Shown: positions 5,130 to 62,970 of the stretch, in pieces
How positions within the stretch are numbered: position 1 is the stretch's first letter
Layout: the number at the start of each line of letters is the position of its first letter
Virus record (IMG/VR): IMGVR_UViG_3300048014_000353
Span: 62,001-126,000 of that record
DNA: 64,000 bases
Direction: 5' to 3' (one strand)
DNA from: a virus
Position numbers and translations under genes: made by a program
The notes under the pieces: model-generated
Told to the model about the DNA's origin: nothing
Seen by the model: only the letters and a program-made list of their open reading frames with translations
The model's database searches: none

Positions 5130-5978
5130 TTAGGCTGCGCGCGTCGCGCCGGCCGCGAGGAGCTCGAGGCGGAGTGCCTTCAAGGCCTTCTCCATCATCT
5201 CAAGCTTCTGCGCGAGGACGCCGTTTCGGCCGTCGGTCGTCTGCGCGAGCGCGGCGATCTCCGCCCGGGTGAGCCCACGGCCGATGCGCTCTGCCAGTCC
5301 CTCGATTCGCGCAAGCGCGTCGAGCGCGCGGTCCCGGCTCTCCCCGTCGTCCTTCGGGACAGCGAAGAGATCGACTTGAGCCTCGGCGTCAAGGTGCGCT
5401 TGCACCGTGCGCCGAAGTTCCGCGTACGAGCGGCACTTGCCCGCGCCGATGGCGTCGAAGACAAGGCGCTGTCGGAGCGGCGGGAGTTTCGCCATCTCGA
5501 ACGCCTGCGACGGCGTGAGGATGCCGCGGGCGAGCGCGTCCTGGTACTCTGGAGTCAACTTCAAGAGAGCCGTCCTTTCTGTGACACGCCAGACCTGCTT
5601 CAGGCCGAGCCGCTGAGCGAGTTCCTCGGGGGTGAGCCCCGCGTCGAGGCGACGCTGGAACGCGCGCGCCTCCTCGAGCGGGGTGATGTCCTTGCGTTGC
5701 AGGTTCTCGACGATGGCCGCGTCGGCCATGTCGTCGTCCGTCATCTCGACAACCTCGGCCCGGATGGTCTCGGCGCCGAACACCTGGTGCGCGCGCCACC
5801 GTCGCTCGCCGCAGACAATTTCGTAGCCGTCCCCGGACGGACGGACCTTGATCGCCTGGAGAAGGCCTCTGGCCTGGATGCTTGCTGCGAGCTCCTCGAG
5901 TTCGGCCCGCGGGAAGATCTTCCTCGGCTGATGGGGGTTCGGGCGCACCATGCCCATCGGCAGTTCCCGAAGCGTCAC
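5130..5978 (-). CDS. parB: ParB/Spo0J-type partition protein
   Basis: A 282-residue ParB-family protein. Residues 3-110 are the CTP-binding N-domain, with GERRWRA (57-63) and ENLQRKDITPLEEA (91-104) as the two signature boxes. Residues ~114-155 form the helix-turn-helix region (LTPEELAQRLGL...). A helical C-terminal part follows. ParB loads on parS-like sites as a CTP-dependent clamp and usually acts with ParA; no ParA is in this window. The GTG start overlaps the upstream stop. It could serve partition of a plasmid-like prophage, or act as a regulator. Confidence 0.9.
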   Translation of the reverse strand: MTLRELPMGMVRPNPHQPRKIFPRAELEELAASIQARGLLQAIKVRPSGDGYEIVCGERRWRAHQVFGAETIRAEVVEMTDDDMADAAIVENLQRKDITPLEEARAFQRRLDAGLTPEELAQRLGLKQVWRVTERTALLKLTPEYQDALARGILTPSQAFEMAKLPPLRQRLVFDAIGAGKCRSYAELRRTVQAHLDAEAQVDLFAVPKDDGESRDRALDALARIEGLAERIGRGLTRAEIAALAQTTDGRNGVLAQKLEMMEKALKALRLELLAAGATRAA

Positions 5979-6582: not shown

Positions 6583-6687
6583 GATAGGCGCACGCGTATT
6601 CGAAGTTTTTTCTCTCGCGGTTTCAGCAGCCTGCGCGCAGGGTCCCCCTTGCGCGGGTGGGGCAGCACCACCGACCGCTCCAAATAA

Positions 6688-6754
6688 CCACGGGCCCTCG
6701 CGCCTCTTGCCGCCGAGCGCATCGGAACGGCGAAGGGGACGCGAGGGCCCGTGG
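6688..6754 (-). terminator. large hairpin downstream of the DUF488 gene
   Basis: Perfect 15-base arms CCACGGGCCCTCGCG (6688-6702) and CGCGAGGGCCCGTGG (6740-6754) enclose a 37-base loop that can itself pair weakly (TTGCCG with CGGCGAA). It begins 26 bases after the DUF488 stop. On the minus strand it is followed by TTATTT, so it fits a transcription terminator. Its size also allows a structured-RNA or protein-binding role. No gene is seen in the surrounding 6,583-6,779. Confidence 0.55.
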
Positions 6755-6779
6755 AAGCCCGGATACCGCGCTTTCGGGC

Positions 6780-7247
6780 TCAACCCGTAAAGAGCGTGCC
6801 TTGGCGTTTGATGTCGAGGGAGCCGGGCGCGGGCGGCTTGGAGATGTCGATCTCCTCGCCGAGCAGCGGTTGCTTGTCCTTGCCGAACGTCAACTCGCCC
6901 ACCTTGACCTGAAGGTGGCGCTCGAACCACGCCGCCACGAGGCGGCGATGGCACCAGTTTTTACCGCCACCGGGTTCGTCGAACGGCGGGATCTCGTAGC
7001 AGAGCAGCACGGGCTCGGCGCCCGCCGCCAGCGTGTGGAGCTCATCCCAGACCGTCTTCGGGTCGAGCGGCCCCAAGATCTCCTTGGCGAAGAGTTCCTC
7101 GTAGCGCGTGCGCGCGACGCTGTTGAACCAGGAGCCAGGCGCGAGCGCCTTGAACTGCCGGTAGCCGGCGGGTGTCCCCCGCGGCGCGAACCGCGCGATC
7201 GAGATGCGCCCCGGCCCCTTGTACGTACGGAATGACCCCGTTTTCAT
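6780..7247 (-). CDS. DUF488 family protein
   Basis: A 155-residue protein; ATG 7247 chosen because AAGGGA lies upstream. Residues ~1-40 (SFRTYKGPGRISIARFAPRGTPAG), the central RYEELFAKEILGPLDPKTVWDEL and 'PVLLCYE' with a following CHRR (near residue 110) match the DUF488 pattern, in which a conserved Cys and Arg pair sit in a small alpha/beta domain of unknown chemistry. It has its own promoter (7287-7316) and a hairpin terminator. Occurs in many bacteria and phages; role here unknown. Confidence 0.7.
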   Translation of the reverse strand: MKTGSFRTYKGPGRISIARFAPRGTPAGYRQFKALAPGSWFNSVARTRYEELFAKEILGPLDPKTVWDELHTLAAGAEPVLLCYEIPPFDEPGGGKNWCHRRLVAAWFERHLQVKVGELTFGKDKQPLLGEEIDISKPPAPGSLDIKRQGTLFTG

Positions 7248-7286
7248 CGTCTTGTCCCTTCGGGTGGATGGTGAGTGGCATTGACT

Positions 7287-7316
7287 AATGTAGCACTGTA
7301 CAGACAGTGTGCACAA
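7287..7316 (-). promoter_or_regulatory. second promoter family, copy 2 (drives the DUF488 gene)
   Basis: Minus-strand TTGTGC (7316-7311), 18 bases and TACATT (7292-7287). The spacer carries a perfect inverted repeat CACTGT-acag-ACAGTG (7294-7309), followed by GTGCAC. Homologous to 6553-6582. The likely start lies ~33 bases before ATG 7247. The operator also lies ~30 bases before the plus-strand modification gene at 7339, so a bound regulator could affect both directions. Confidence 0.65.
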
Positions 7317-7338
7317 GAATTAGACGATCGCGAGCCGA

Positions 7339-8691
7339 ATGTTCGTAGGCGCCATCCCCATCGAGTGCATCGAGCAACTCGCGGCCGTGATGCCGGTCGA
7401 GTCGTGGCGCCTGGTCTACTCGTGCTGCTCCGGAAGCTTCCGTGCTGACGAAGCGCTCGGGTCACGCTTCCCGATGCTCAGCATCACGTCGAACGACGTG
7501 GCCCTGCTGTCGTGCGCGATCGGCAAGCTGGCGGTCGGAGATGAACTCCCGCTCACGTTCAAGGAGCGCCTCGCGTTCGCCGAGGACGCGATTGGCGGCG
7601 CAAAGGCCGACCCGATGGACCGCGTCGCGGCCGTGATGGTCGCCTTCGCGATGAGCAAGTTCAAGGGGAACAATCTCTTCGCGCAAAAGCACTTCGCGCA
7701 CTACCAAGAGCACTTCGCGCACTACGTTGCGGGTGCCCGAGAGCGCCTCGAGAAGCGTCTCAGTTCGATTCGGATTACTGGCTTCAACGCCTGCGACTTC
7801 CGGGAGCACGCCAAAGAAGGCATCGCGCGCGGCGCGGCCATCGTCGCCTTTCCACCCACGTACAAGCGTGGCTACGAGGCGATGTACAAATTCCTCGAGC
7901 AGAACGTCAACTGGACCCCGCCCACCTACGACCTCTGGGACCCGGAGCTTCTGCCGGAGTGGGTCACGAGCCTCGACGAGGCCGGTGCCAAGTACGCCAT
8001 CTGGGCCGACCACCTCCTGCCGGGGCGCGAGCCAGTCGCGGGCTTCTTCTCCAGCACCAACAAGCCCGTCTACCTGTACGGGTCGAGCACGCAGGCGAGC
8101 GTGCGCCGCAAGGTGCATCCGGTCGAGGCCTTCCGCTACGTCGCGGTCACCCCGGAGCAGGTGAAGAAAGACGCCACAGTGTCCGTCGTGCGCGCGACCA
8201 GCGCGCAGATGAACTTCCTGAAGGACCACTACCTCGCCAAGGGGATCGCGCACATCTCGGGGCAGTTCAACTTCCTCGTGCTGCTCTCCGGGCGTCTCGT
8301 CGGCGGGTTCATCCTCGCCCGCGACAAGTTCGGTCACGGCGACTCCGCGTACCTCCTGAGCGACTTCTCGATCGTTCGAGAGAACCGACTCTCCAAGCTC
8401 GTCGCGATGATGGCCACGTCTAGGCCGGTCATCGACATCGTCGAGCGGGCTCTCTTCCAGCGAATCCGCAAGATCTCCACGACGGCATTCACCGACAAGC
8501 CGGTGAGCATGAAGTACCGCTGGATCTTCACCCTCGTGGGTCGCAAAGAGAAGCATCTGAATTACGAAAGCGCCGTGAGGCCTGGTGACTACCAAAGCAT
8601 CTACCGGGAGTGGTTCCGAAAGTACGCCCAAGCCGGCGACCCCGGGGGTCGAGCCGCTCCGGGTGGAGCCGCGCAAGGTTCGCCTTCGTGA
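7339..8691 (+). CDS. methyltransferase-like / Mom-like GNAT fusion, candidate DNA modification enzyme
   Basis: 450 residues with two parts. Residues ~25-200 look like a Rossmann methyltransferase relative: VYSCCSGSFR (27-35) at the motif I position, SNDV (51-54) after the next strand, and AFPPTYKRGYE (170-180) at the catalytic motif IV position. This pattern is known from phage proteins labelled antirestriction adenine methyltransferase. Residues ~285-430 look like a GNAT fold: LVLLSGRLVGGFIL (313-326), SDFSI (341-345), RLSKLV (350-355), then TAFTDKPVSMKYRW. They resemble Mom-type DNA-modification acetyltransferase-fold proteins. Next come a ParB-like gene and terminase. Substrate and product are unknown. 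Confidence 0.6.
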   Translation: MFVGAIPIECIEQLAAVMPVESWRLVYSCCSGSFRADEALGSRFPMLSITSNDVALLSCAIGKLAVGDELPLTFKERLAFAEDAIGGAKADPMDRVAAVMVAFAMSKFKGNNLFAQKHFAHYQEHFAHYVAGARERLEKRLSSIRITGFNACDFREHAKEGIARGAAIVAFPPTYKRGYEAMYKFLEQNVNWTPPTYDLWDPELLPEWVTSLDEAGAKYAIWADHLLPGREPVAGFFSSTNKPVYLYGSSTQASVRRKVHPVEAFRYVAVTPEQVKKDATVSVVRATSAQMNFLKDHYLAKGIAHISGQFNFLVLLSGRLVGGFILARDKFGHGDSAYLLSDFSIVRENRLSKLVAMMATSRPVIDIVERALFQRIRKISTTAFTDKPVSMKYRWIFTLVGRKEKHLNYESAVRPGDYQSIYREWFRKYAQAGDPGGRAAPGGAAQGSPS

Positions 8692-9376
8692 TCTGACTCT
8701 CCTCGAGAAGGAGAAGAACCCCCGGTACATGACCGGGCCGCAGTTCAAGCAGCTTACGAGCAACCTCGAAGCCGACGGTGCCATGACGAGCACCCCGACC
8801 GTCCACAAGGGCATCGTCCTCTCCGGAAACCACCGGGTCGAGGCCGCGCTCAAGGCCGGCATCGAGGAGGGGTGGGTGCTCGAGATCCTGAACGAGGATC
8901 TGCCCGACGATCGAAAGATGGCCATCCAGCTTTCGCACAATGCGATCACTGGCCAGGACGACCCCAACCTACTCGCCGACTTCTACAAGAACCTCGACTT
9001 TAGTTGGGCGAAGTACTCCGGCCTGACCGACGACGTTCTCAAAGCAGCGACCAAGCTCGAGAGCGTGTCACTGACAGTCGGCCCCCCCGAGTACACGGAA
9101 CTGATGATGGCGTTCCTACCCGAGGATGCCGACCGGTTCCTGGCCCACATCGACAAGGTGGCCAAGCACGCGGGACGCCGCCACGTGATGGCGGCGCGCT
9201 TCGCCGACTTCGACAAGGCGTTCGACGCGATTGTGCGCGTCAAACAGCTCAAAAACATTCAGAACATCGCCGTCACGTTCGCCACTCTCGTTGAGATGGC
9301 GCTGGAGCGCATCGAGCAGCTCGAAGCCGAACGGGACGCCGAAGGGGAGGCCGCAGTCTCGGCCCCCGTCCCGTAG
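8585..9376 (+). CDS. ParB-like N-domain protein next to terminase
   Basis: 263 residues from GTG 8585, overlapping the previous gene by 107 bases; GTG 8663 (29-base overlap) is an alternative start. The ParB-like core is at ~30-130: VRLRDLTLLE, NPRYM, then IVLSGNHRVEAAL (77-89), the equivalent of the GERR box with Asn-His in place of Glu-Arg. It has no typical KorB-type helix-turn-helix. The rest is helical with a C-terminal coiled coil (VEMALERIEQLEAERD). Related ParB-like proteins are often found beside phage terminase or base-modification genes. Possible packaging or modification partner; inferred. Confidence 0.75.
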   Translation: MTTKASTGSGSESTPKPATPGVEPLRVEPRKVRLRDLTLLEKEKNPRYMTGPQFKQLTSNLEADGAMTSTPTVHKGIVLSGNHRVEAALKAGIEEGWVLEILNEDLPDDRKMAIQLSHNAITGQDDPNLLADFYKNLDFSWAKYSGLTDDVLKAATKLESVSLTVGPPEYTELMMAFLPEDADRFLAHIDKVAKHAGRRHVMAARFADFDKAFDAIVRVKQLKNIQNIAVTFATLVEMALERIEQLEAERDAEGEAAVSAPVP

Positions 9377-9391: not shown

Positions 9392-9967
9392 ATGTCTCCC
9401 AACGACAATGAAGGCGGGACGCCTTCCCCCGAGATCGCGCCCGTCGTCCCCTCCATCATCGGAGGCGATGGGCCTCCGGGTGGAAGCGCGCCGCCACCCA
9501 CCAAGCGCCGGAGTCCCAACCCCAAGGGGCGAAAGCCGCGCTTCACGATCGCGCAGGTCGAAGAGGCGCTGCGGCACGGCGGCGGACTCTACACGTACGC
9601 CGCGCGCATCCTACACTGCGCGCCGAACACGATCGCGAACTACGTCAACCGGAGCGAGCGTCTTCAGGACGTCCTCTCGGAGTTGAACGTGACGATGCTG
9701 GACCTGGCCGAGGCCAACCTCTTCAAGCACATCGTCGATTCGAACCTGACCGCGCTCATCTTCTATCTGAAGTGCAAGGGGAAGCTGCGGGGCTACGTCG
9801 AGCGTCAAGAGGTCTCCGGCCCTGCCGGCGCGCCGATCGGAGTTCAACTCACCGACGGCGAAGTGGCGAAAATGAGCGACGAGGACATCCTCAGCCGTAT
9901 CGAACAGATCGGGCAGAAGAGTGGGTCCGGAGGAGCAACTTCTTCGTCTAGAGCTCGAAAGGCGTAG
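9392..9967 (+). CDS. terminase small subunit (probable)
   Basis: 191 residues. After a Pro/Gly-rich N-terminal tail and a basic patch (KRRSPNPKGRKPRFT), residues ~52-85 form a helix-turn-helix (IAQVEEALRHGGGLYTYAARILHCAPN in segments). A helical oligomerisation region (~90-130) and an acidic tail follow. This layout, directly upstream of and overlapping terL by 47 bases, fits a small terminase that recognises the packaging site. The ATG at 9392 has GTAGGT upstream. Confidence 0.75.
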   Translation: MSPNDNEGGTPSPEIAPVVPSIIGGDGPPGGSAPPPTKRRSPNPKGRKPRFTIAQVEEALRHGGGLYTYAARILHCAPNTIANYVNRSERLQDVLSELNVTMLDLAEANLFKHIVDSNLTALIFYLKCKGKLRGYVERQEVSGPAGAPIGVQLTDGEVAKMSDEDILSRIEQIGQKSGSGGATSSSRARKA

Positions 9968-11378
9968 GCGTCGGCGCACCAATGAGCCACTCGTGGACTA
10001 TGTCCACGACGTCACTCCTCGTTGGGAGCGCCCCGAACACCTCCTTCCGATCTGCTCGCTCTTCGAGCGAATCAAGAACGGCGAGTCGCTCTTCGCGTGC
10101 ATCTCGGTTCCGCCGCAGCACGGCAAGAGCCAGACGATCCTCCACGGCTGCGCGCAGCTCTTTCAGCGCAACCCGACTGACACGATCGCCTACGTCTCCT
10201 ACGGCGCGACCATCGCCGAAGAACAGAGCCGCGATTGCCAGGCGATCCTACGGCGCGCTGGGGTAGCGCTCAACCCGAATGCGCTGTCGGCCGGAAGCTG
10301 GCAGACCGCCGCGGGTGGCCGCTTCTATGCGGTCGGCGTCGGCGGCCCGCTCACAAGCCGGCCGATCACGCGCCTGCTCATCGTCGACGACCCGTACGAA
10401 AACCGGCAGCAGGCCGAGAGCGCCATCACACGAAACCACATCGTCAGCTGGTTCTCGTCGGTCGGCGTCACTCGTATCCACCCGGGCGCCAGCATCATCG
10501 TAGTCCACACGCGGTGGCACGAAGACGATCTCATCGGTCGGCTCACCCGCGGTCTTACCACCGAGGGCATCCCTGGATGGGAGTACGTCAACCTGCCGGC
10601 GATCGCCGACGGAACGGACCCATCACGTCCCGTAGGGACTGCCCTTTGGCATGCACGGCCGCTCGAACTCTTCACGCGCATTCGCGCGAGCGGGTCGCTC
10701 ACGGACCACGACTGGGAGTCGATGTACATGGGGCGCCCGCGCCCCCGTGGAGCCCAGCTCTTTCGCGGCGTCACATACTACAGCGAGCTTCCCAAGACGT
10801 ACCGCGTCGGCAAGGGCGTCGACCTCGCCTACACGGCCAAGAGCCGCGCCGATCACTCGGCCGGCATCGTGGTCCTGCAGGCGGATGAGAAGTTCTACGT
10901 CGCGCACGTCGAGCGTCGCCAGCTGGAACTCGACCAGTTCATCCCGTACCTCGTGGCCCAGTCACGAACGTACAAGGGGGTCTACCGGTTCTCGACCAGC
11001 AGCACCGAGAAGGGCATCGCCCAGCTCTCGAAGCTGCTACCCGCGGACTCCATCCGCATCCATGGCGAGCTCGCCATGAGCGACAAGTTCACCCACTCGC
11101 AGCGCAGTGCGACCGAGTGGAACGCGGGTCGCATCATGGTCCCCGACGAAGCGGCGCAAGCTCAGCTTCGTGCGCTTGGTCTCGACACCGATTGGGTGAA
11201 ACCGTTCGTCGAGGAGATGAACCGCTTCACCGGTGTCTCTGACCGCGAGGACGACCAGTGCGACGCGCTCTTCAACGCGATCGACACCTTCCCAGCCAAG
11301 AAGAGCAAGCCCCCCGTGACCGGTGGCGGCTTCTATCCCGGCATCCAGCACGACGACCTGCCTGCGGGTTACGGCTGA
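9921..11378 (+). CDS. terL: terminase large subunit
   Basis: 485 residues. The ATPase domain has Walker A PPQHGKS (64-70), Walker B RLLIVDD (151-157) with a following coupling segment and VVHTRWHEDDLIG (~194-206). The RNase H-like nuclease domain starts near GVDLAYT (299-305, first catalytic Asp 301) and ends with DREDDQCDALFNAI near residue 450. It cuts concatemers and pumps DNA through the portal. GTG start at 9921. The length is typical for the family. Confidence 0.95.
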   Translation: MGPEEQLLRLELERRRRRRTNEPLVDYVHDVTPRWERPEHLLPICSLFERIKNGESLFACISVPPQHGKSQTILHGCAQLFQRNPTDTIAYVSYGATIAEEQSRDCQAILRRAGVALNPNALSAGSWQTAAGGRFYAVGVGGPLTSRPITRLLIVDDPYENRQQAESAITRNHIVSWFSSVGVTRIHPGASIIVVHTRWHEDDLIGRLTRGLTTEGIPGWEYVNLPAIADGTDPSRPVGTALWHARPLELFTRIRASGSLTDHDWESMYMGRPRPRGAQLFRGVTYYSELPKTYRVGKGVDLAYTAKSRADHSAGIVVLQADEKFYVAHVERRQLELDQFIPYLVAQSRTYKGVYRFSTSSTEKGIAQLSKLLPADSIRIHGELAMSDKFTHSQRSATEWNAGRIMVPDEAAQAQLRALGLDTDWVKPFVEEMNRFTGVSDREDDQCDALFNAIDTFPAKKSKPPVTGGGFYPGIQHDDLPAGYG

Positions 11379-11434: not shown

Positions 11435-13753
11435 ATGGCCACCAAGCGAACCAAGCTCCGTCGCACGCCGAAGACCGTGCCGATGGCCTCGCGCGGGACG
11501 CGCCCCGCGTCCTCGGTCATGCCGAAGACCAAGGCGGCGCCCGAGCCGACGTTCCCGATCGCGGTCAATCCGACCCCGGGCGTCCTCGCCCCGCCGCCGC
11601 TCATCGACCGCTACCCCCTCGTCCAGGGGCAGCAGCTCACCTTTACCTATCTCGCGAGCATCTTTCGGCTCGCGACGACGGGCTACCGTCAGCAATTCGT
11701 CGACCTGCTCCGCGAGCTCGTCGAGAACGACGGGCACCTCCTCTCGGTCCTTCAGAAGCGGATCCTGGCAGTCGCAAACGGCCGGATTCGGTTCACGCCT
11801 GCGGTGGATGAGGACCATCCGGAGTCGGAGCTCGCCAAAGAGGTCTGCGAGCTCTGTGAGATTGAGGTCCTCCGGATCCCGAACCTCACGCAGTCGCTGG
11901 CGACGTTGCTCTGGGCGATCTACTACGCGGCCAGCTGCGCAGAGATCATCTGGTCGCGCGATACCGCAGGCTGGCACGTCGACCGGCTCGAGTTCGTGCA
12001 CTCGCGCCGCATTTCGTGGCCGGACTCTCAGTCCTGGGACGCCTACATCTGGGACCAGGGCCAGGTCTACGGGTGGCAGTCCCCGTGGGGCGCGGCGGCC
12101 ACCAATAGCGGTGTTTTCGGTCTTCGGATCGGAAACTGGCCCGGCAAGTTCGTCTTCTACGCGCCCCAGATTCAGGGCGATTACCCCACGCGCGACGGCC
12201 TCGGCCGTCAGGCGGCCATCTTCGCGCTCTTCAAGCGCATCGGTGTTCGTGGCGCCAGCTCGTATCTCGAGCGGTTCGCCAAGGGGTTCATGGACGTCTC
12301 GTACAAGACGTCCCACTCTGACGAACATCCGGACGCCCCCCGCGAAGCGACCGCCGACGACATCGCGATCGCCAACCAGATCGCCGCAGCGCTCGGACCG
12401 GGGAGCGGCAGCTACGCCGCTCACCCGGACTCGATCTCCATCAGCCCGCAGTCGTTCGACGGCGGGTCATCGACCAAGATCACCTGGCAGGAGTGGATCG
12501 GCCTCTGCAACGCGGAGATGAGCAAGCTCGTTCTCGGCGGCACGCTGGGAACGGAAGCGGGCAAGGGCGGCGGCAACCGCGCCCTCGGCGAAGTGATGGA
12601 GCGCGGCGAGGTCGAGCTCCAGCAGTTCGACGCGACGACGCTGGCCGAGACGCTCAAGCGCGACCTGGTCTCGTGGATCGTACGGCTCAATCGGCCCGAC
12701 GCGATTCACCTCGTTCCGAACATCGCGATCCACACGGAGAGCGACCCGGACCCCAAGGCGCTCATCGAGAACGCCGAACGCGTCACGGGGATTGGTGGAG
12801 CGGTCGATCTCGACCAGCTGGCTGAGGACACGGGCGTGCCGCTCGTTCCGAACGAGACGGGCAAGCCGCGTCGCTCGTTCAAGAGCGACATGATCAAGCC
12901 GGAGCTCGTGCAGGACGACCTGCTCAGCCCTGAAGCCAAGAAACAAGCCGCCGCCGACTCCAAGGCCAAGCTGGCCGCCGCCACGCGCCCTCAAGTCGTT
13001 GCGTCCACGCGCTCCAACGGCGTGGACACGGACGACGACCAGGCCGACGACGGCAAGCGCGACCCGAAGAAGGCCCCGGCCGCGAAACCCAACGCCAAGC
13101 CCTCGGGTAAGGTCGCCCCTAAGCCGTCCAAGTCTTCCAAGTCGTCCCCCAAGGACAAGGCCGAGAAGGCGGAGAAGCCTTCGAAGGTCAAGAAGGCGAC
13201 CGACGGTCTCTCCTGCGAAGAGGTGGCGCAGGCCGATGCCTTTCGGAAGTTCCTCTTGTCGTCGAAGCGCGACGACAAGGAGATGGCGTACGCCGTCTAC
13301 GAGGAGCTCCTCGAAGATTATCCGCCCGCGGCGCTCGATTGGATCCTTGCCGCGCACTGGGAGGGTCCGATGGAGATCCCGCTCGACCAGATCGACTTCT
13401 CCCAGAGGAAGACCTGGCGCGCGGACACCGACGACCTCACGCCCTACCGCGACCGCCTCAACAAGGCGCTGGCGGGCAACGGTCCGCGCAAACCCGTCAT
13501 CATCGTCAAGACCCCGGGTAATCCGCTCTACCTCATCGTTGACGGCCACCACCGGACGCTCGCCTGCCTCCTGGAGGGCGTTCCTGCCTGGGCCTACGTC
13601 GCCGAGGTACACGTCGACAACGGCCCGTGGCGCCGGCTGCACGCCGAACAGAAACGCGGCAGCAGCAAGAACGACACGTCCGTCGTCGGCTCCTCCCACG
13701 TCTACAGCCCGGACGGTGATGACGGCCTGCCGGAACACGACGACGAGAGCTGA
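11435..13753 (+). CDS. portal protein (DUF935/Mu gp29-like) with C-terminal ParB-like domain
   Basis: 772 residues. Residues ~60-480 match the DUF935 portal type: TYLASIFRLATTGYRQQFVD (in part), LQKRILAV, and the later GNRALGEVMERGEVELQQFDA region typical of the portal stem. A Lys/Ala/Pro/Asp-rich linker covers ~505-590. Residues ~645-735 form a ParB-like domain: IPLDQIDFSQ, a following RKPVIIVKTP strand, LIVDGHHRTLACLLEG (DGHHR at the GERR position), then AYVAEVHVD. A ParB-like domain fused to a portal is unusual. The tail is acidic and Ser-rich. The portal forms the 12-mer DNA channel. Confidence 0.9.
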   Translation: MATKRTKLRRTPKTVPMASRGTRPASSVMPKTKAAPEPTFPIAVNPTPGVLAPPPLIDRYPLVQGQQLTFTYLASIFRLATTGYRQQFVDLLRELVENDGHLLSVLQKRILAVANGRIRFTPAVDEDHPESELAKEVCELCEIEVLRIPNLTQSLATLLWAIYYAASCAEIIWSRDTAGWHVDRLEFVHSRRISWPDSQSWDAYIWDQGQVYGWQSPWGAAATNSGVFGLRIGNWPGKFVFYAPQIQGDYPTRDGLGRQAAIFALFKRIGVRGASSYLERFAKGFMDVSYKTSHSDEHPDAPREATADDIAIANQIAAALGPGSGSYAAHPDSISISPQSFDGGSSTKITWQEWIGLCNAEMSKLVLGGTLGTEAGKGGGNRALGEVMERGEVELQQFDATTLAETLKRDLVSWIVRLNRPDAIHLVPNIAIHTESDPDPKALIENAERVTGIGGAVDLDQLAEDTGVPLVPNETGKPRRSFKSDMIKPELVQDDLLSPEAKKQAAADSKAKLAAATRPQVVASTRSNGVDTDDDQADDGKRDPKKAPAAKPNAKPSGKVAPKPSKSSKSSPKDKAEKAEKPSKVKKATDGLSCEEVAQADAFRKFLLSSKRDDKEMAYAVYEELLEDYPPAALDWILAAHWEGPMEIPLDQIDFSQRKTWRADTDDLTPYRDRLNKALAGNGPRKPVIIVKTPGNPLYLIVDGHHRTLACLLEGVPAWAYVAEVHVDNGPWRRLHAEQKRGSSKNDTSVVGSSHVYSPDGDDGLPEHDDES

Positions 13754-14278: not shown

Positions 14279-16843
14279 GTGCCCGCCGTGACGACGAAAC
14301 CCATCCTGCTCGACCTCGCGCCGAGCGACGTGCACACGCCGTCGTCCATGGCGACGGTGAGCGCCGCCAAGCCGGGTCTCCTGGCCAAAGCCGCGCTCGC
14401 CGTCGTCCACGACGACGGCGGTCGCATCCTCACCGTCGCCCGCCCCGAGCCGCCTCACGAGATGGCCCTTCCGGGCGGGATGATCGAGGACGGCGAGACC
14501 GAGGAAACCGCCGCCGCCCGCGAGCTGACCGAGGAAACCGGCATCAAGGCCGATGTCCTCGAGCACATCCTCGACACCCGGAGCCCCGTCGACGGCCGCG
14601 TCGTCTCGATCTTCCGCGTCACGCGGTGGTCGGGCGAGCCGTCCGCCGCCGAGGGCAACCCGGTCCAGTGGATGAAGCCGATCGACCTTGTGGCCCAGGC
14701 CACCCACTTCCGCCCGACCTTGAGGGAACTCATGCCGCACATCCTCCCCGAGGGCGAGATGGCCGAGCGCGCGAACCTCATCGACGCCGCCAAGCGCAAC
14801 GCCCTGGCCGAGTCGAAGTTCGCGCTCCCCGCCCAGCGCAAGTACCCGATCGACACGGCCGCCCGCACGCGCAACGCCGCCGCGCGTCTTGAGCAGCAAA
14901 GGAAGGCCGGCAAGATCTCCGACGCCGACTACAAGACCGCGCGCGTTCGTATCGCCGCCGCCGCGAAGTCGTTCGGCATCGACAGCGAATTCAACGCGCG
15001 CGCCGGCTCGCCGCCGGCCGCCGCCGCCAAGCGACCCGCAGGACGCGGGCGCGGAACCATTCACGTCCGGGCCGACCTGGCTCCCGGGGGAGCTCTCCAC
15101 GTGCGCCATATGACGACGAGCGAGGACGGCGCGCAGGCCTTCGTCCAACTGAGTGACGGAAGCATCGGCCTCCGCGACATCCGCGCGATCAAGCAGGGCG
15201 ACGAGGTCGATCCGGCCACCGCGGGCGTGAAGCTCATCGGCAAAGCCACCTGGAGCGACGGGACGCCCAAGACCCTCGTGTGGATTCAGGTGGCCGAGTG
15301 CGGCGCCTGGCGCGGTCACCCGGCCGGTCCGTTCGAGATGACGCCCAAGACGTTCGCCGAGATCAAGGCCAACTTCGACCAGCGCGGTCTCCCGGTCCCC
15401 TTCGACTACGAGCACGCGAGCGAGCAGGACGCGACGAGTGGCAGCATCCCGATCTCGGGCGCGCCCGCGCCGGGCTGGGTCCACAAGCTCGACAACCGCG
15501 GCATCGGCGGGCTCTGGGGCCTGGTCGAGTGGCTCGACGCCGCGCGCAACGCGATCAAGGAAGGGTCCTACGCCTTCCTGTCGCCTGCCATCCGCTTCGG
15601 GTGCAAGCACCCGGTGACGGGGCAGCCCATCGGCGCGCGGCTCACGTCGGTGGCGCTCACCAACCAGCCGTTCCTGACGTCGCTCGACGACCTTCGCGCG
15701 GCGAAGGACGACTCGGCGCGCGAAGCGCTGCTCGCGAAGTCGCCGCTCCTGTTGAAGGGCTTCGGTGAGAACGTCATCGCCGCCGGCGGCAGCGCGCTCC
15801 TCGACCGTATGGTCCATTCCCCGTCGGGGATCCTCCCCAAGATCAAGGCGGCGCTGAAGCTGCACCCGCTCGCGACGCTGGACGACGTGTCGGGGCATCT
15901 CGGCAAGCTCCGCGAGGCCTGCATGTCGGCCGACGCGGGCGGGTCGTACTGCGGCGAGCCGCTCAGCGACTACTTGGGGCCGCTCACCGACCTCGCGAAC
16001 CCCGGCCTTGGGGCGACCTACACCAACGTCCTCGACGCGCTCGACGCGTTCGTGGACGCCGAGATCGAAAAGCACGTCTTCCAAGGCGTGCCCATGCCGG
16101 ACCCGCCTTCTGCGGCGATGGACGACGACTTTGATGACGGCGGAGGAGACCTCTCCGACCGCCCGGAGAAAACCATGTCCGACAAGACCGCCACGACCCT
16201 CAAGGACGCTCAGGACGAACTCGCCAAGGTCACCGCCGTCAAGGAGTCGGTCGAGGCCGAGCGTACGCAGCTCCTCGCCGACAAGCAGACCCTCGCGACG
16301 GAGAAGACCAACCTCCTGGCGGACAAGGTCAAGCTCGAAGGCGAGAACTCGACGCTCACCCTGCAGCTCCGCGACGCGACGCAGAAGGCGACCGAGGCGG
16401 GCGAAGCCCTTTCGACTGCGAACGCGTCGATCGCCGCCGCTTCCACTGCGCTCGTCCTGAAGGACAAGGAGACGCTCGCCGAGGGTGCCGCGCGCATCGT
16501 CGCCGACAACGTGCGCCTGGCGAAGGAAGTCGCCGACATCAAGGAGGCGGGGCTCGTCGCTGCCGTAGACGACGCCTTCGCGGCGTACAGCGAGAGCAAG
16601 AAGCTCCGCGCCGAGGACAAGCCCATGATGCTCCGCTCGGCCCGCGCCGACCGCGAAGCGTTCGATGCGCTCTACCCGCCGGTCAGCGCCGCGCACCGTC
16701 ACCTCCTCACGACCGTCGTGACCCCCGAGAAGCGCCCGGAAGTGGAGCAGGCGGAGGCAAGTGACCCGATCAAGGTCATGAGCGAAACCGGCTGCAATTA
16801 CGCCGAGGCGCTCGCGCGTATCAACCGCAAGAAGCCCGAATGA
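14279..16843 (+). CDS. fusion of Nudix hydrolase, DUF6582-like, Mu gpI-like protease and scaffold
   Basis: 854 residues. Residues ~35-165 are a Nudix hydrolase with a complete Nudix box (G67, E73, R81-E82, E85-E86, G88). Residues ~187-235 contain KYPIDTAARTRNAAARL and KISDADYKTARVRI, a DUF6582-like domain common near phage proteases. Residues ~335-475 match Mu-like capsid proteases: WIQVAECGAW, PVPFDYEHAS, SYAFLSPAIRF, LTSVALTNQPFL. Residues ~633-854 are a long coiled-coil scaffold with an internal start at 16175. The protease would cut itself, scaffold and capsid during maturation. A Nudix domain on the precursor is rare; it might hydrolyse nucleotides or cap-like groups. The N-terminus carries LDLAPSDVHTPS, also seen in the capsid proteins. 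Confidence 0.85.
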   Translation: MPAVTTKPILLDLAPSDVHTPSSMATVSAAKPGLLAKAALAVVHDDGGRILTVARPEPPHEMALPGGMIEDGETEETAAARELTEETGIKADVLEHILDTRSPVDGRVVSIFRVTRWSGEPSAAEGNPVQWMKPIDLVAQATHFRPTLRELMPHILPEGEMAERANLIDAAKRNALAESKFALPAQRKYPIDTAARTRNAAARLEQQRKAGKISDADYKTARVRIAAAAKSFGIDSEFNARAGSPPAAAAKRPAGRGRGTIHVRADLAPGGALHVRHMTTSEDGAQAFVQLSDGSIGLRDIRAIKQGDEVDPATAGVKLIGKATWSDGTPKTLVWIQVAECGAWRGHPAGPFEMTPKTFAEIKANFDQRGLPVPFDYEHASEQDATSGSIPISGAPAPGWVHKLDNRGIGGLWGLVEWLDAARNAIKEGSYAFLSPAIRFGCKHPVTGQPIGARLTSVALTNQPFLTSLDDLRAAKDDSAREALLAKSPLLLKGFGENVIAAGGSALLDRMVHSPSGILPKIKAALKLHPLATLDDVSGHLGKLREACMSADAGGSYCGEPLSDYLGPLTDLANPGLGATYTNVLDALDAFVDAEIEKHVFQGVPMPDPPSAAMDDDFDDGGGDLSDRPEKTMSDKTATTLKDAQDELAKVTAVKESVEAERTQLLADKQTLATEKTNLLADKVKLEGENSTLTLQLRDATQKATEAGEALSTANASIAAASTALVLKDKETLAEGAARIVADNVRLAKEVADIKEAGLVAAVDDAFAAYSESKKLRAEDKPMMLRSARADREAFDALYPPVSAAHRHLLTTVVTPEKRPEVEQAEASDPIKVMSETGCNYAEALARINRKKPE
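16175..16843 (+). CDS. nested capsid scaffold protein (internal start)
   Basis: An in-frame ATG at 16175 (MSDKTATTLKD) is preceded by GGAG nine bases upstream and sits right after an acidic Asp/Gly-rich linker. It would give 222 residues: about 110 residues of coiled coil (DAQDELAKVTAVKESVEAE... with regular Leu/Ala spacing), then a globular C-terminal part that would bind capsid protein. Internal starts of this kind are known in lambda C/Nu3 and Mu I/Z. Here it is inferred from the ribosome site and domain boundary. Confidence 0.65.
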   Translation: MSDKTATTLKDAQDELAKVTAVKESVEAERTQLLADKQTLATEKTNLLADKVKLEGENSTLTLQLRDATQKATEAGEALSTANASIAAASTALVLKDKETLAEGAARIVADNVRLAKEVADIKEAGLVAAVDDAFAAYSESKKLRAEDKPMMLRSARADREAFDALYPPVSAAHRHLLTTVVTPEKRPEVEQAEASDPIKVMSETGCNYAEALARINRKKPE

Positions 16844-59628: not shown

Positions 59629-60006
59629 ATGATCCTCACCTGCCTGCGTCACCGGACTGCGTCGTGCGACCCCGCGAACAGCTCCATCTGGGAGATGGAC
59701 GTCCGACGCGGCATTCATCCCCCGCGGCCGATCATCATCGCGCGCATCGTGCTCGGCAGCGCACTTCCCATCGACGTCGAGATCCCCATCTGCACCTCGC
59801 GCGTTCCGCGCAAGCTCTCGTGGCCGATCCAGTTCGTCGCGAACGGAACCTGGCGCATCGCGCTCGCCCGCTACGGCCATGACCTCCGTGAGCTCACCGA
59901 GCCCATGGAGTTCGATGATCGCCTTCCCATCGGGAGCCTCGATCTCCTTTGCTGCCCGCCCGACGTGCAGAACGATCTGCTGGGCATCGACGAGCTGCCG
60001 CTATGA
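59629..60006 (+). CDS. hypothetical protein
   Basis: 125 residues from ATG 59629 with GGGAAG upstream. Mixed strands and short helices (PIIIARIVLGSALPIDVEIPICTS, WPIQFVANGTWRIALARYG). No domain recognised. Coupled to guanylate kinase by ATGA. Confidence 0.5.
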   Translation: MILTCLRHRTASCDPANSSIWEMDVRRGIHPPRPIIIARIVLGSALPIDVEIPICTSRVPRKLSWPIQFVANGTWRIALARYGHDLRELTEPMEFDDRLPIGSLDLLCCPPDVQNDLLGIDELPL

Positions 60007-60635
60007 CCGACCCGCTCCTCGTGTGCCTCGTGGGCCCGAGTGGGGTAGGGAAGAGCACGCTCGCGCAGCGCCTTCTCGCGGAGCGACCGGACTTCACCCG
60101 AAAGATCTCCCACACGTCCCGCAAGCCGCGCGGCTCCGAAGTGCGCGACGTGGACTACCACTTCGTGACGCGCGAGGCGTTCCTGGCGGACGTGCACGCG
60201 GGTCACTTTCTCGAGCACTCGAACGTCTACGACAACCTGTACGGAACGAGCCGCTCGGAAGTCGCGCGCGCCGTCGGCACGGGGAAGCGCGGCCTCGTGC
60301 TCGAGCTCGACGCCTATGGCGCGTCGCAGATGCGAGCGAGCGCGCCCGCGAGCACGGTCGTGGTCTTCATCCTCCCTCCATCGCTGGAGACGCTCGGGCT
60401 TCGCCTCCGGCAGCGAGCCACCGAGGACACGGCGACGATCGAGCGGCGCACCGCGGACGCCCGCGCCGAGATCGTCTTGGTCGATTCCGTCGCGGACTAC
60501 GTGATCGTCAACGACGACGCCGCGAGAGCCGGCAAGACGCTCTCGGCCCTCGTGGAGGCCGAGCTCCTCAAACGCACGAGCCCTGCCTGGGGCGACATGG
60601 CCGCACGTCTTCTGAGGAACGGAGCCATCGCTTGA
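60003..60635 (+). CDS. guanylate kinase-like enzyme
   Basis: 210 residues. P-loop GPSGVGKST (10-18), then ISHTSRKPRGSEVRDVDYHFVTREAF (35-60), the GMP-binding signature of guanylate kinases, HFLEHSNVYDNLYGTSR, and later VVVFILPPSLETL and RRTADARAEI of the lid and helical end. It should phosphorylate GMP or dGMP to feed phage DNA synthesis. Slightly longer than bacterial Gmk. A role with modified nucleotides is possible but unsupported. Confidence 0.9.
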   Translation: MTDPLLVCLVGPSGVGKSTLAQRLLAERPDFTRKISHTSRKPRGSEVRDVDYHFVTREAFLADVHAGHFLEHSNVYDNLYGTSRSEVARAVGTGKRGLVLELDAYGASQMRASAPASTVVVFILPPSLETLGLRLRQRATEDTATIERRTADARAEIVLVDSVADYVIVNDDAARAGKTLSALVEAELLKRTSPAWGDMAARLLRNGAIA

Positions 60636-61525: not shown

Positions 61526-62970
61526 ACCCGCACTGGACCGAAGCTGAGCTCCGCCGCCTCAAGGAATCGCTCCGCGGCTGCCGCACGAAGGACGAAGCGA
61601 CCATCGCAGCGCAGCGCATCCGGCGCGGCATCACCGCGACCGCGCTCGACATGGTGTGCACGAAGAAGTTCGGCCGCACCCTCACGCGAATTCTCTACGA
61701 TAACATCAACGGACGGTCGGAGGCACCGGCCGCGCCGGAGCTCGGCCCCACGACCCACGACACCGAGCGCGAGATGCGCGCGGTGCGCGTGCCCGCGGTC
61801 GAGGTGAGGCGCGCGGAGCCCGCGCCGTTGCCGAAGGTCATCGTGCAGCCGGAGGACTTCGAGATCCCGGTCGAGGCCGAGGGGTTCGAGGACCTCGCGG
61901 CGAACGCACCCGCCGACGCGACCCGGGCGCTCAACGCGCTTTCGGAGGATGTGCCGACCGATGCGCGCCAGAGCGAGGCGCCGCTCACGGACCTCGAGCG
62001 GCATCGCCTCGTGCGATCGGTCTCGGAGCTCACCGCCGCCCGCAAGCGGCTCGTGGCCGAGCTGGCCGATAAGGAGGAGCAGATCTCCATCCTCTCGGGC
62101 CTGAAGGCCGCGCCGCCGGCGAAGATCGTCGCGCCCCAAGGGCGAGGGGAGGGGCGCCAGCGCCTCGCGGTGCCGGTGATGCTTCTCTCTGACTGGCACG
62201 TCGAGGAGCCGGTCGACCCCGAGAGCGTCTCCGGTCTCAATACCTACAATCTCGACATCGCCGACGCGTGCATCACCAAGTGCGCCGAAGCGTTCGAGTG
62301 GCTCGTGCGTGACCCGCGCTTCGACATGCGCACGGCCATTGTCGCGATCATCGGCGATCTTTACTCAGGCTACATCCACACGGAGCTGGTCGAGAGCAAC
62401 TTCCTGTCGCCGGTGCAGGCGGTCGTGTGGCTGCAGGAGCGGATCGAGCGAATGCTCCGTCGCATCCTGGCGACGACCGACTTCGAGCGCATCATCGTTC
62501 CCTGCAACGACGGGAATCACGGGCGCCTCACGGACAAGATCCGCGTCTCGACCCGCACCGCCAACAGCCTCGAGTGGTTGCTCTACAAGACGCTCGCCGC
62601 GCGCTTTCAGGACGAGCCGCGGATCGAGTTCCACATCGCCGATGGCGAGTACAACTACATCGACGTCTTCGACCAGACGTACTGCTTCTTTCACGGCGAC
62701 TCGGTGCGGTACATGGGCGGCGTCGGCGGCCTCCTCATCCCGATGAAGCGCGGGCTCAACGAGCTGCGCAAGTACCGGAAGGTGGATCACTTCGCCTTCG
62801 GGCACTTCCACCAGCGCATCGACATTCCGGAAATGTCCGGAAACGGCTCGATGATCGGGATCAACGCCTACGCGATGCGGCTCAAGGTCACTCCCGAGCC
62901 GCGCCAGCAGTCGTTCTTCCTCATCGATGACCAGCGCGGGAAATGCCAGAGCACGCCGATCTGGCTGTGA
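61522..62970 (+). CDS. calcineurin-like metallophosphatase with helical N-terminal extension
   Basis: 482 residues. The first ~200 hold a helix-rich DNA-binding-like start (WTEAELRRLKESLRG, TALDMVCTKKFGRT) and a coiled coil (LTAARKRLVAELADKEEQI). The metallophosphatase domain follows: SDWHVEE (~222), GDLYSG (~277), CNDGNHGRL (~330), HGDS (~391), GHFHQR (~426), the usual D-H, GD, GNH, H, GHxH metal ligands. Phage members of this family act on nucleic acid or nucleotides; the substrate here is unknown. Confidence 0.85.
   Translation: MNPHWTEAELRRLKESLRGCRTKDEATIAAQRIRRGITATALDMVCTKKFGRTLTRILYDNINGRSEAPAAPELGPTTHDTEREMRAVRVPAVEVRRAEPAPLPKVIVQPEDFEIPVEAEGFEDLAANAPADATRALNALSEDVPTDARQSEAPLTDLERHRLVRSVSELTAARKRLVAELADKEEQISILSGLKAAPPAKIVAPQGRGEGRQRLAVPVMLLSDWHVEEPVDPESVSGLNTYNLDIADACITKCAEAFEWLVRDPRFDMRTAIVAIIGDLYSGYIHTELVESNFLSPVQAVVWLQERIERMLRRILATTDFERIIVPCNDGNHGRLTDKIRVSTRTANSLEWLLYKTLAARFQDEPRIEFHIADGEYNYIDVFDQTYCFFHGDSVRYMGGVGGLLIPMKRGLNELRKYRKVDHFAFGHFHQRIDIPEMSGNGSMIGINAYAMRLKVTPEPRQQSFFLIDDQRGKCQSTPIWL

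Follow-up and report, generated by a model that had tools for sequence, protein, structure and literature searches.

A conserved phage gene module centred on a DAM-like/GNAT-like fusion protein, a candidate DNA-modification enzyme

What might be the function of a 450-residue phage protein in which a methyltransferase-like half is followed by an acetyltransferase-like half, encoded just ahead of a ParB-like protein and the terminase? The question is raised by a 64,000-nucleotide stretch of DNA (hereafter, the window; positions 62,001 to 126,000 of IMGVR_UViG_3300048014_000353) that sits within a 138.5-kb IMG/VR virus record. A preliminary description of the window had proposed that this protein joins a methyltransferase-like domain to a GNAT domain resembling Mom of phage Mu, and that it may make a new modified base on packaged DNA. 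Coordinates of the relevant features are given in Table 1.

Table 1. Features of the fusion gene, its product and the adjoining genes; coordinates are those of the window, residues those of the fusion protein
Feature	Coordinates	Strand	Basis
450-aa DAM-like/GNAT-like fusion protein	7339..8691	+	Pfam PF22555 and PF22559; PHROG 7858; AlphaFold2 model, pLDDT 92.8
DAM-like (adenine-methylase-like) half, residues 2-266	7342..8136	+	PF22555; Foldseek
Motif I (SAM site) CCSGSF, residues 29-34	7423..7440	+	C-[SA]-G-[NS]-F conserved, 63 distinct members
Motif II-like N-D-V, residues 52-54	7492..7500	+	D53 in 61/63, V54 in 56/63
Motif III-like D153	7795..7797	+	D in 58/63
Degenerate motif IV FPPTY, residues 171-175, replacing [DN]PP[YF]	7849..7863	+	Alignment, 63 members
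GNAT-like half, residues 279-429	8173..8625	+	PF22559; GNAT-only model, pLDDT 92.5; top 50 PDB matches are GNATs
R-L-S-K-L at expected CoA loop, residues 350-354	8386..8400	+	K353 in 60/63, L354 in 63/63
Signature PVSMKYRW (family consensus PVSMKYRG), residues 388-395	8500..8523	+	Near-invariant; W395 in this copy only
ParB/Srx-like partner	8585..9376	+	Overlaps end of fusion; phrog_7405, E 1.3e-52; ParB PHROG 620, E 6e-10
DUF488-like partner, divergent, C-Y-E ... C-H-R	6780..7247	-	PF22751; conserved signature
Putative small terminase	9392..9967	+	phrog_309, E 0.0023, weak
Large terminase	9921..11378	+	phrog_38, E 6e-64, clear

The fusion of methyltransferase-like and acetyltransferase-like halves, as first described, is real. 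Its reading frame of 450 codons starts with ATG, fills the interval exactly and has a coding-like third-position GC content (GC3 0.86 vs. GC2 0.45). Both Pfam profiles of the family exceed their gathering cut-offs in the family order, DAM-like before GNAT: PF22555 (“DAM-like-phage1”) covers residues 2–266 (E 7.8e-49, 166.8 bits vs. a cut-off of 27) and PF22559 (“GNAT-phage-like”) residues 279–429 (E 2.1e-40, 138.7 bits vs. 27), while PHROG 7858, to which PHROG assigns no function, covers the whole protein. Searches with AlphaFold2 models found a methyltransferase-like fold and a GNAT fold. The strings singled out in the preliminary description (SGSF, residues 31–34; FPPTYKRGYE, 171–180; SDFSI, 341–345; RLSKLV, 350–355; SMKYRW, 390–395) are, judged from the alignments, conserved motifs of the two Pfam families, well above chance. 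A sequence search for kinship to a solved structure gave none for the fusion protein, and the PADLOC defence models matched neither it nor the DUF488-like gene. A carbon–nitrogen hydrolase match on the fusion (PF00795, E 0.12) was discarded as noise.

Relatives were collected in two ways. A tblastn search returned 15 cultured phage records (Mycobacterium, Gordonia, Faecalibacterium) and 10 plasmid records, and pattern scans with a five-member alignment located loci in both viruses (209) and bacterial genomes (85), 80 of each kind being retained for study; with the window protein as sole query, the viral scan found no relatives. The fetched members, which span many phyla in the tree, collapse to 63 distinct sequences, the window's included. 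It should be noted that two seemingly rearranged or frameshifted loci (L081 and L142) were excluded from inferences. The window copy clusters with two viral contigs (L009 and L031, support 99/86) and is otherwise an ordinary member, its nearest relatives being 48–49% identical. Cultured carriers, with Gordonia rubripertincta and Mycobacterium smegmatis as hosts, include Gordonia phages Clawz and Sting and Mycobacterium phage Argie, and cultured-phage copies are annotated “hypothetical protein” or “(DNA) methyltransferase”. The fusion is also found in many Streptomyces chromosomes (L107–L158, Streptomyces and relatives), and one supported clade (L139, L140, L143, L146, L147) comprises desulfobacterial and other proteobacterial genomes.

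The genes surrounding the fusion provide the first line of evidence. Of 165 loci, 160 have an adjoining ParB-like gene: in 155 it follows the fusion, usually with an overlap, and in five it precedes it. L139 and L143 show the upstream order. Terminase usually follows: among the PHROG matches of the first large downstream reading frame, the 25 most frequent families include 22 of terminases. The arrangement noticed in the preliminary description, with a ParB-like gene and terminase directly after the fusion, holds in the window and reflects a linkage conserved across phyla. The ParB-like partners share SG[NH]HR and QLSHN...G-x-D-D motifs, and the window gene has a weak PADLOC match to MTase_II (E 0.0013).

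The preliminary description was silent on the DUF488-like gene that lies just upstream of the fusion. In the window, this gene scores 20.4 bits against PF22751 (DUF488-N3a), under the cut-off of 27, and carries the C-x-E...CHR signature; homologues in L159, L145 and L139 exceed the cut-off. Among distinct loci, 55 extended far enough upstream; when the whole fetched locus was searched, a DUF488-like gene was found in 43 of them, mostly within about 1 kb upstream, and none was found in the other 12, in which the ParB-like gene and the fusion persist. All 44 DUF488-like sequences compared, the window's among them, share C83 and C99-H100-R101, and 40 have E85. Judged by gene order and sequence conservation, the DUF488-like, DAM–GNAT fusion and ParB-like genes are a conserved three-gene phage module. 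The window carries all of its parts, with the DUF488-like gene on the opposite strand, and both the putative small and the clear large terminase gene.

The second line of evidence comes from the DAM-like half, whose best PDB match in Foldseek is the rRNA methyltransferase AviRa (E 1.5e-5). Its motifs I–IV are named after their presumed counterparts in Dam. The conservation of motif I, D53 and D153 is as expected of a SAM site. The motif IV acid, however, is lost in most members: position 171 is F in 46, Y in 10, N in two and D in one of the 63 members, and the catalytic D/N of [DN]PP[YF] is replaced by F or Y in 56. Dam-type N6-adenine methyltransferases are similar in their methyltransferase fold, motif I and the acidic residues of motifs II and III, yet differ in having kept the motif IV D/N where most fusions have F/Y and the window has FPPTY. 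In the tree, the two members with NPPTY group as a clade with full support; five further fetched loci also read NPPTY, and DPPYF occurs in the family as well. Judged from these motifs, those with NPPTY or DPPY may be genuine methylases, in which case the family would be a mixed one.

Genes for SAM synthetase are located near the fusion in FP_Brigit (L004) and in L163, both of them NPPTY loci. In L165, a related locus with CPTY, a divergent SAM synthetase (6933-7721 of that locus) stands directly upstream of the fusion. As a general partner SAM synthetase was rejected, these three loci of the N/C-PTY clade being the only ones. An intein interrupts the fusion directly after FPPFFK in L082 and L095, which hold the same Pseudaminobacter sequence (6657-8804 in the locus); it has C...HN followed by S at its junctions and matches TIGR01445 from residue 176, below the cut-off of that model. 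The intein also contains a LAGLIDADG-like stretch (LSGIFDGEG). Inteins favour functional sites, and the presence of one at motif IV in a single lineage is circumstantial support for the view that the motif still matters.

The C-terminal half is, by its predicted fold, a GNAT. The PDB matches of the GNAT-only model include Naa60, SpeG, HP0935, RimI and other ordinary GNATs, and this half holds the densest near-invariant set of the fusion among the 63 members (G322, D342, K353, L354, T381, PVSMKYRG, Y409 and W425). W395 of SMKYRW is unique to the window copy, as G is found in the other 62 distinct members. CoA-binding GNATs usually carry R/Q-x-x-G-x-G/A. Here, R-L-[SA]-K-L occupies the place that the strand–helix order of the model would assign to the CoA pyrophosphate loop, and the glycines are absent; thus, the half has the GNAT fold and not the pyrophosphate-loop motif of CoA-dependent GNAT acetyltransferases.

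A specific link of this half to Mom was not borne out. The tests were a Pfam search, two fold searches, and hhalign with a 13-member Mom profile, for which 21 ordinary GNAT proteins served as controls. The Mom profile aligned collinearly over 145 columns, with a probability of 2.8% and a P of 0.0055 against 0.037 for the best control, although a profile was here compared with single sequences, so that the comparison is not level. The Pfam Mom family (PF25680) had no match to the fusion protein. In the fold searches, which favour ordinary GNATs, the Mom structure (8BV8) ranked 47 with the whole model and fell outside the top 50 PDB matches with the GNAT half. On these grounds, specific kinship was rejected as a claim of membership: the fusion is no closer to Mom than to ordinary acetyltransferases. 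Mu Mom shares with it the GNAT fold and a phage origin and differs in that it has no methylase-like half, no significant profile kinship and no place among the top structural neighbors. The Mom-like gene of Microbacterium phage Appa overlaps a ParB-like gene, as the fusion does.

The third line of evidence is a variant architecture of three Bacteroidales loci (L159, L162 and L164), assigned by Pfam for the first two and by similarity for the last, in which an N-terminal amidoligase domain precedes DAM-like-phage2 and, after it, the same GNAT-phage-like domain. The DAM half is most degenerate in these loci, yet PVSMKYRG, K353, T381 and Y409 are kept; this pattern of conservation points to the GNAT as the probable constant catalytic part of the variants. 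An alanine-dehydrogenase/PNT-like gene lies near the variant fusion in L159 and L164, and together with the amidoligase it hints at amino-acid-derived groups. In L162, a gene with no Pfam match is found just ahead of the variant fusion. Amidoligase as a general partner was rejected, being confined to these three loci, and neither amidoligase nor SAM-synthetase genes were seen in the window.

In the reading that we favour, at about even odds, the fusion modifies phage DNA: its DAM-like half would present a base for the GNAT half to modify, with help from a ParB-type NTPase; its substrate, donor and product we infer. Against this reading count the action of GNATs on proteins, tRNA and small molecules as well, the possible presence of true methylases in the family, and the small number of loci with amidoligase or SAM-synthetase genes. 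The reading draws support from the conserved ParB-like, DUF488-like and terminase neighbors, from SAM motifs kept where the motif IV acid is lost, from the motif IV intein, the SAM-synthetase loci and the amidoligase variant, and from the roles of other ParB-like proteins. Such proteins belong to the DNA-modification systems Dpd (DpdB) and Dnd (DndB) (PMC12839542, PMC10853773), and binding of ATP, GTP or CTP has been reported for proteins in which a ParB fold is joined to a methyltransferase, acetyltransferase or DUF488 domain (PMC12704722). DndB, DpdB and the ParB–methyltransferase and ParB–acetyltransferase fusions are similar to the module in pairing a ParB-like NTPase fold with modification enzymes; the difference is that the ParB-like protein here is encoded by a separate, overlapping gene beside the DAM–GNAT fusion.

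According to the DNA-modification reading, the 450-residue protein would be the core enzyme of a nucleic-acid-modification module that includes the DUF488-like and ParB-like proteins. The DAM-like half would bind SAM or another adenosyl ligand and hold a flipped adenine of phage DNA, presumably with no Dam-like methylation in most members, while the GNAT half would attach to the presented base an acyl or amino-acid-derived group, bulkier than methyl. The ParB-like NTPase fold could load or spread the enzyme on DNA ahead of packaging, and the modification might protect phage DNA against host nucleases. A modified base on packaged DNA, as proposed in the preliminary description, is plausible. 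More tentative is the specific proposal of a new non-methyl base, acyl or amino-acid-derived, made by an acid-less methylase fold that serves as a SAM-binding base presenter, a GNAT with no ordinary CoA loop and a spreading ParB-type clamp. Such a base would enlarge the set of DNA modifications that phages are able to make, and it would be a case of a methylase fold repurposed for base presentation.

The enzyme could instead still be a DNA adenine methyltransferase, its aromatic motif IV tolerating or altering catalysis and its GNAT half being a DNA-binding or regulatory appendage. Retention of motifs I–III, the NPPTY and DPPYF members and the SAM-synthetase genes of the N/C-PTY clade agree with this, but the exchange of the motif IV D/N for F/Y in most members and the persistence of the GNAT signature beside the most degenerate DAM halves make it unlikely. 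Somewhat less likely again is a module that processes DNA ends or nucleotides in packaging or conflict, in which the DUF488-like protein would act on terminal phosphates or sugars and the fusion would mark or seal ends, not genome-wide bases. Such a role would suit the invariant catalytic-type cysteines of the DUF488 partner and the adjoining terminase, and DNA-end processing was reportedly predicted for the DUF488 clade by Burroughs and Aravind in a 2023 survey of the rhodanese–phosphatase superfamily; the loci in which the ParB-like gene and the fusion persist with no DUF488-like gene found argue against it, and no end-binding feature was seen in the module.

Action on a host protein or tRNA, as a takeover or counter-defence acetyltransferase, is improbable. 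Host proteins are indeed targets of some phage GNATs (Rac of phiKMV-like phages, as cited in PMC7824862), and the top GNAT fold matches are protein and small-molecule acetyltransferases, but this protein is fused to an adenine-methylase-like half and tied to a ParB-like gene beside terminase. The least probable reading, in our opinion, is a Mom-type enzyme producing N6-carbamoylmethyladenine: beyond the shared GNAT fold and a collinear alignment that scored slightly above the ordinary GNAT controls in a comparison that is not level, the profile, Pfam and structural results and the missing DAM-like half of Mom all oppose it.

The novelty suggested in the preliminary description is weakened. Pfam has names for both domains, for a second DAM-like family and for the subclade of the DUF488 partner; the family was thus already catalogued and its parts were known. 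Its names presumably trace to the 2023 survey mentioned above, which is said to have predicted DNA-modifying phage systems. The window copy has the domains of the PF22555 + PF22559 family (PHROG 7858), their order and the ParB-like and DUF488-like neighbors, and differs from it in the W at the near-invariant G395 and in a DUF488 partner under the Pfam cut-off. New here are the finding that the catalytic acid of the methylase is lost across the family, the motif IV intein, the linkage counts, the SAM-synthetase genes beside the NPPTY/CPTY clade and the negative test of Mom kinship. The loss of the acid calls for caution with the annotation “methyltransferase”, and as the module is present in cultured phages, its product is directly testable by LC-MS.

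Several other genes of the window deserve mention. A second, classical ParB (ParB_N + HTH_ParB; 5130-5978, minus strand) is encoded close to the module. The plus strand encodes a Mu-like portal (11435-13753) whose C-terminal ~130 residues are ParB/Srx-like (VDGHHRTLA; weak PHROG ParB matches, best E 0.005), a protein in which NUDIX and DUF6582 domains are fused ahead of a Mu-like head protease (14279-16843), and a guanylate kinase (59949-60632; PF00625, E 1e-37).
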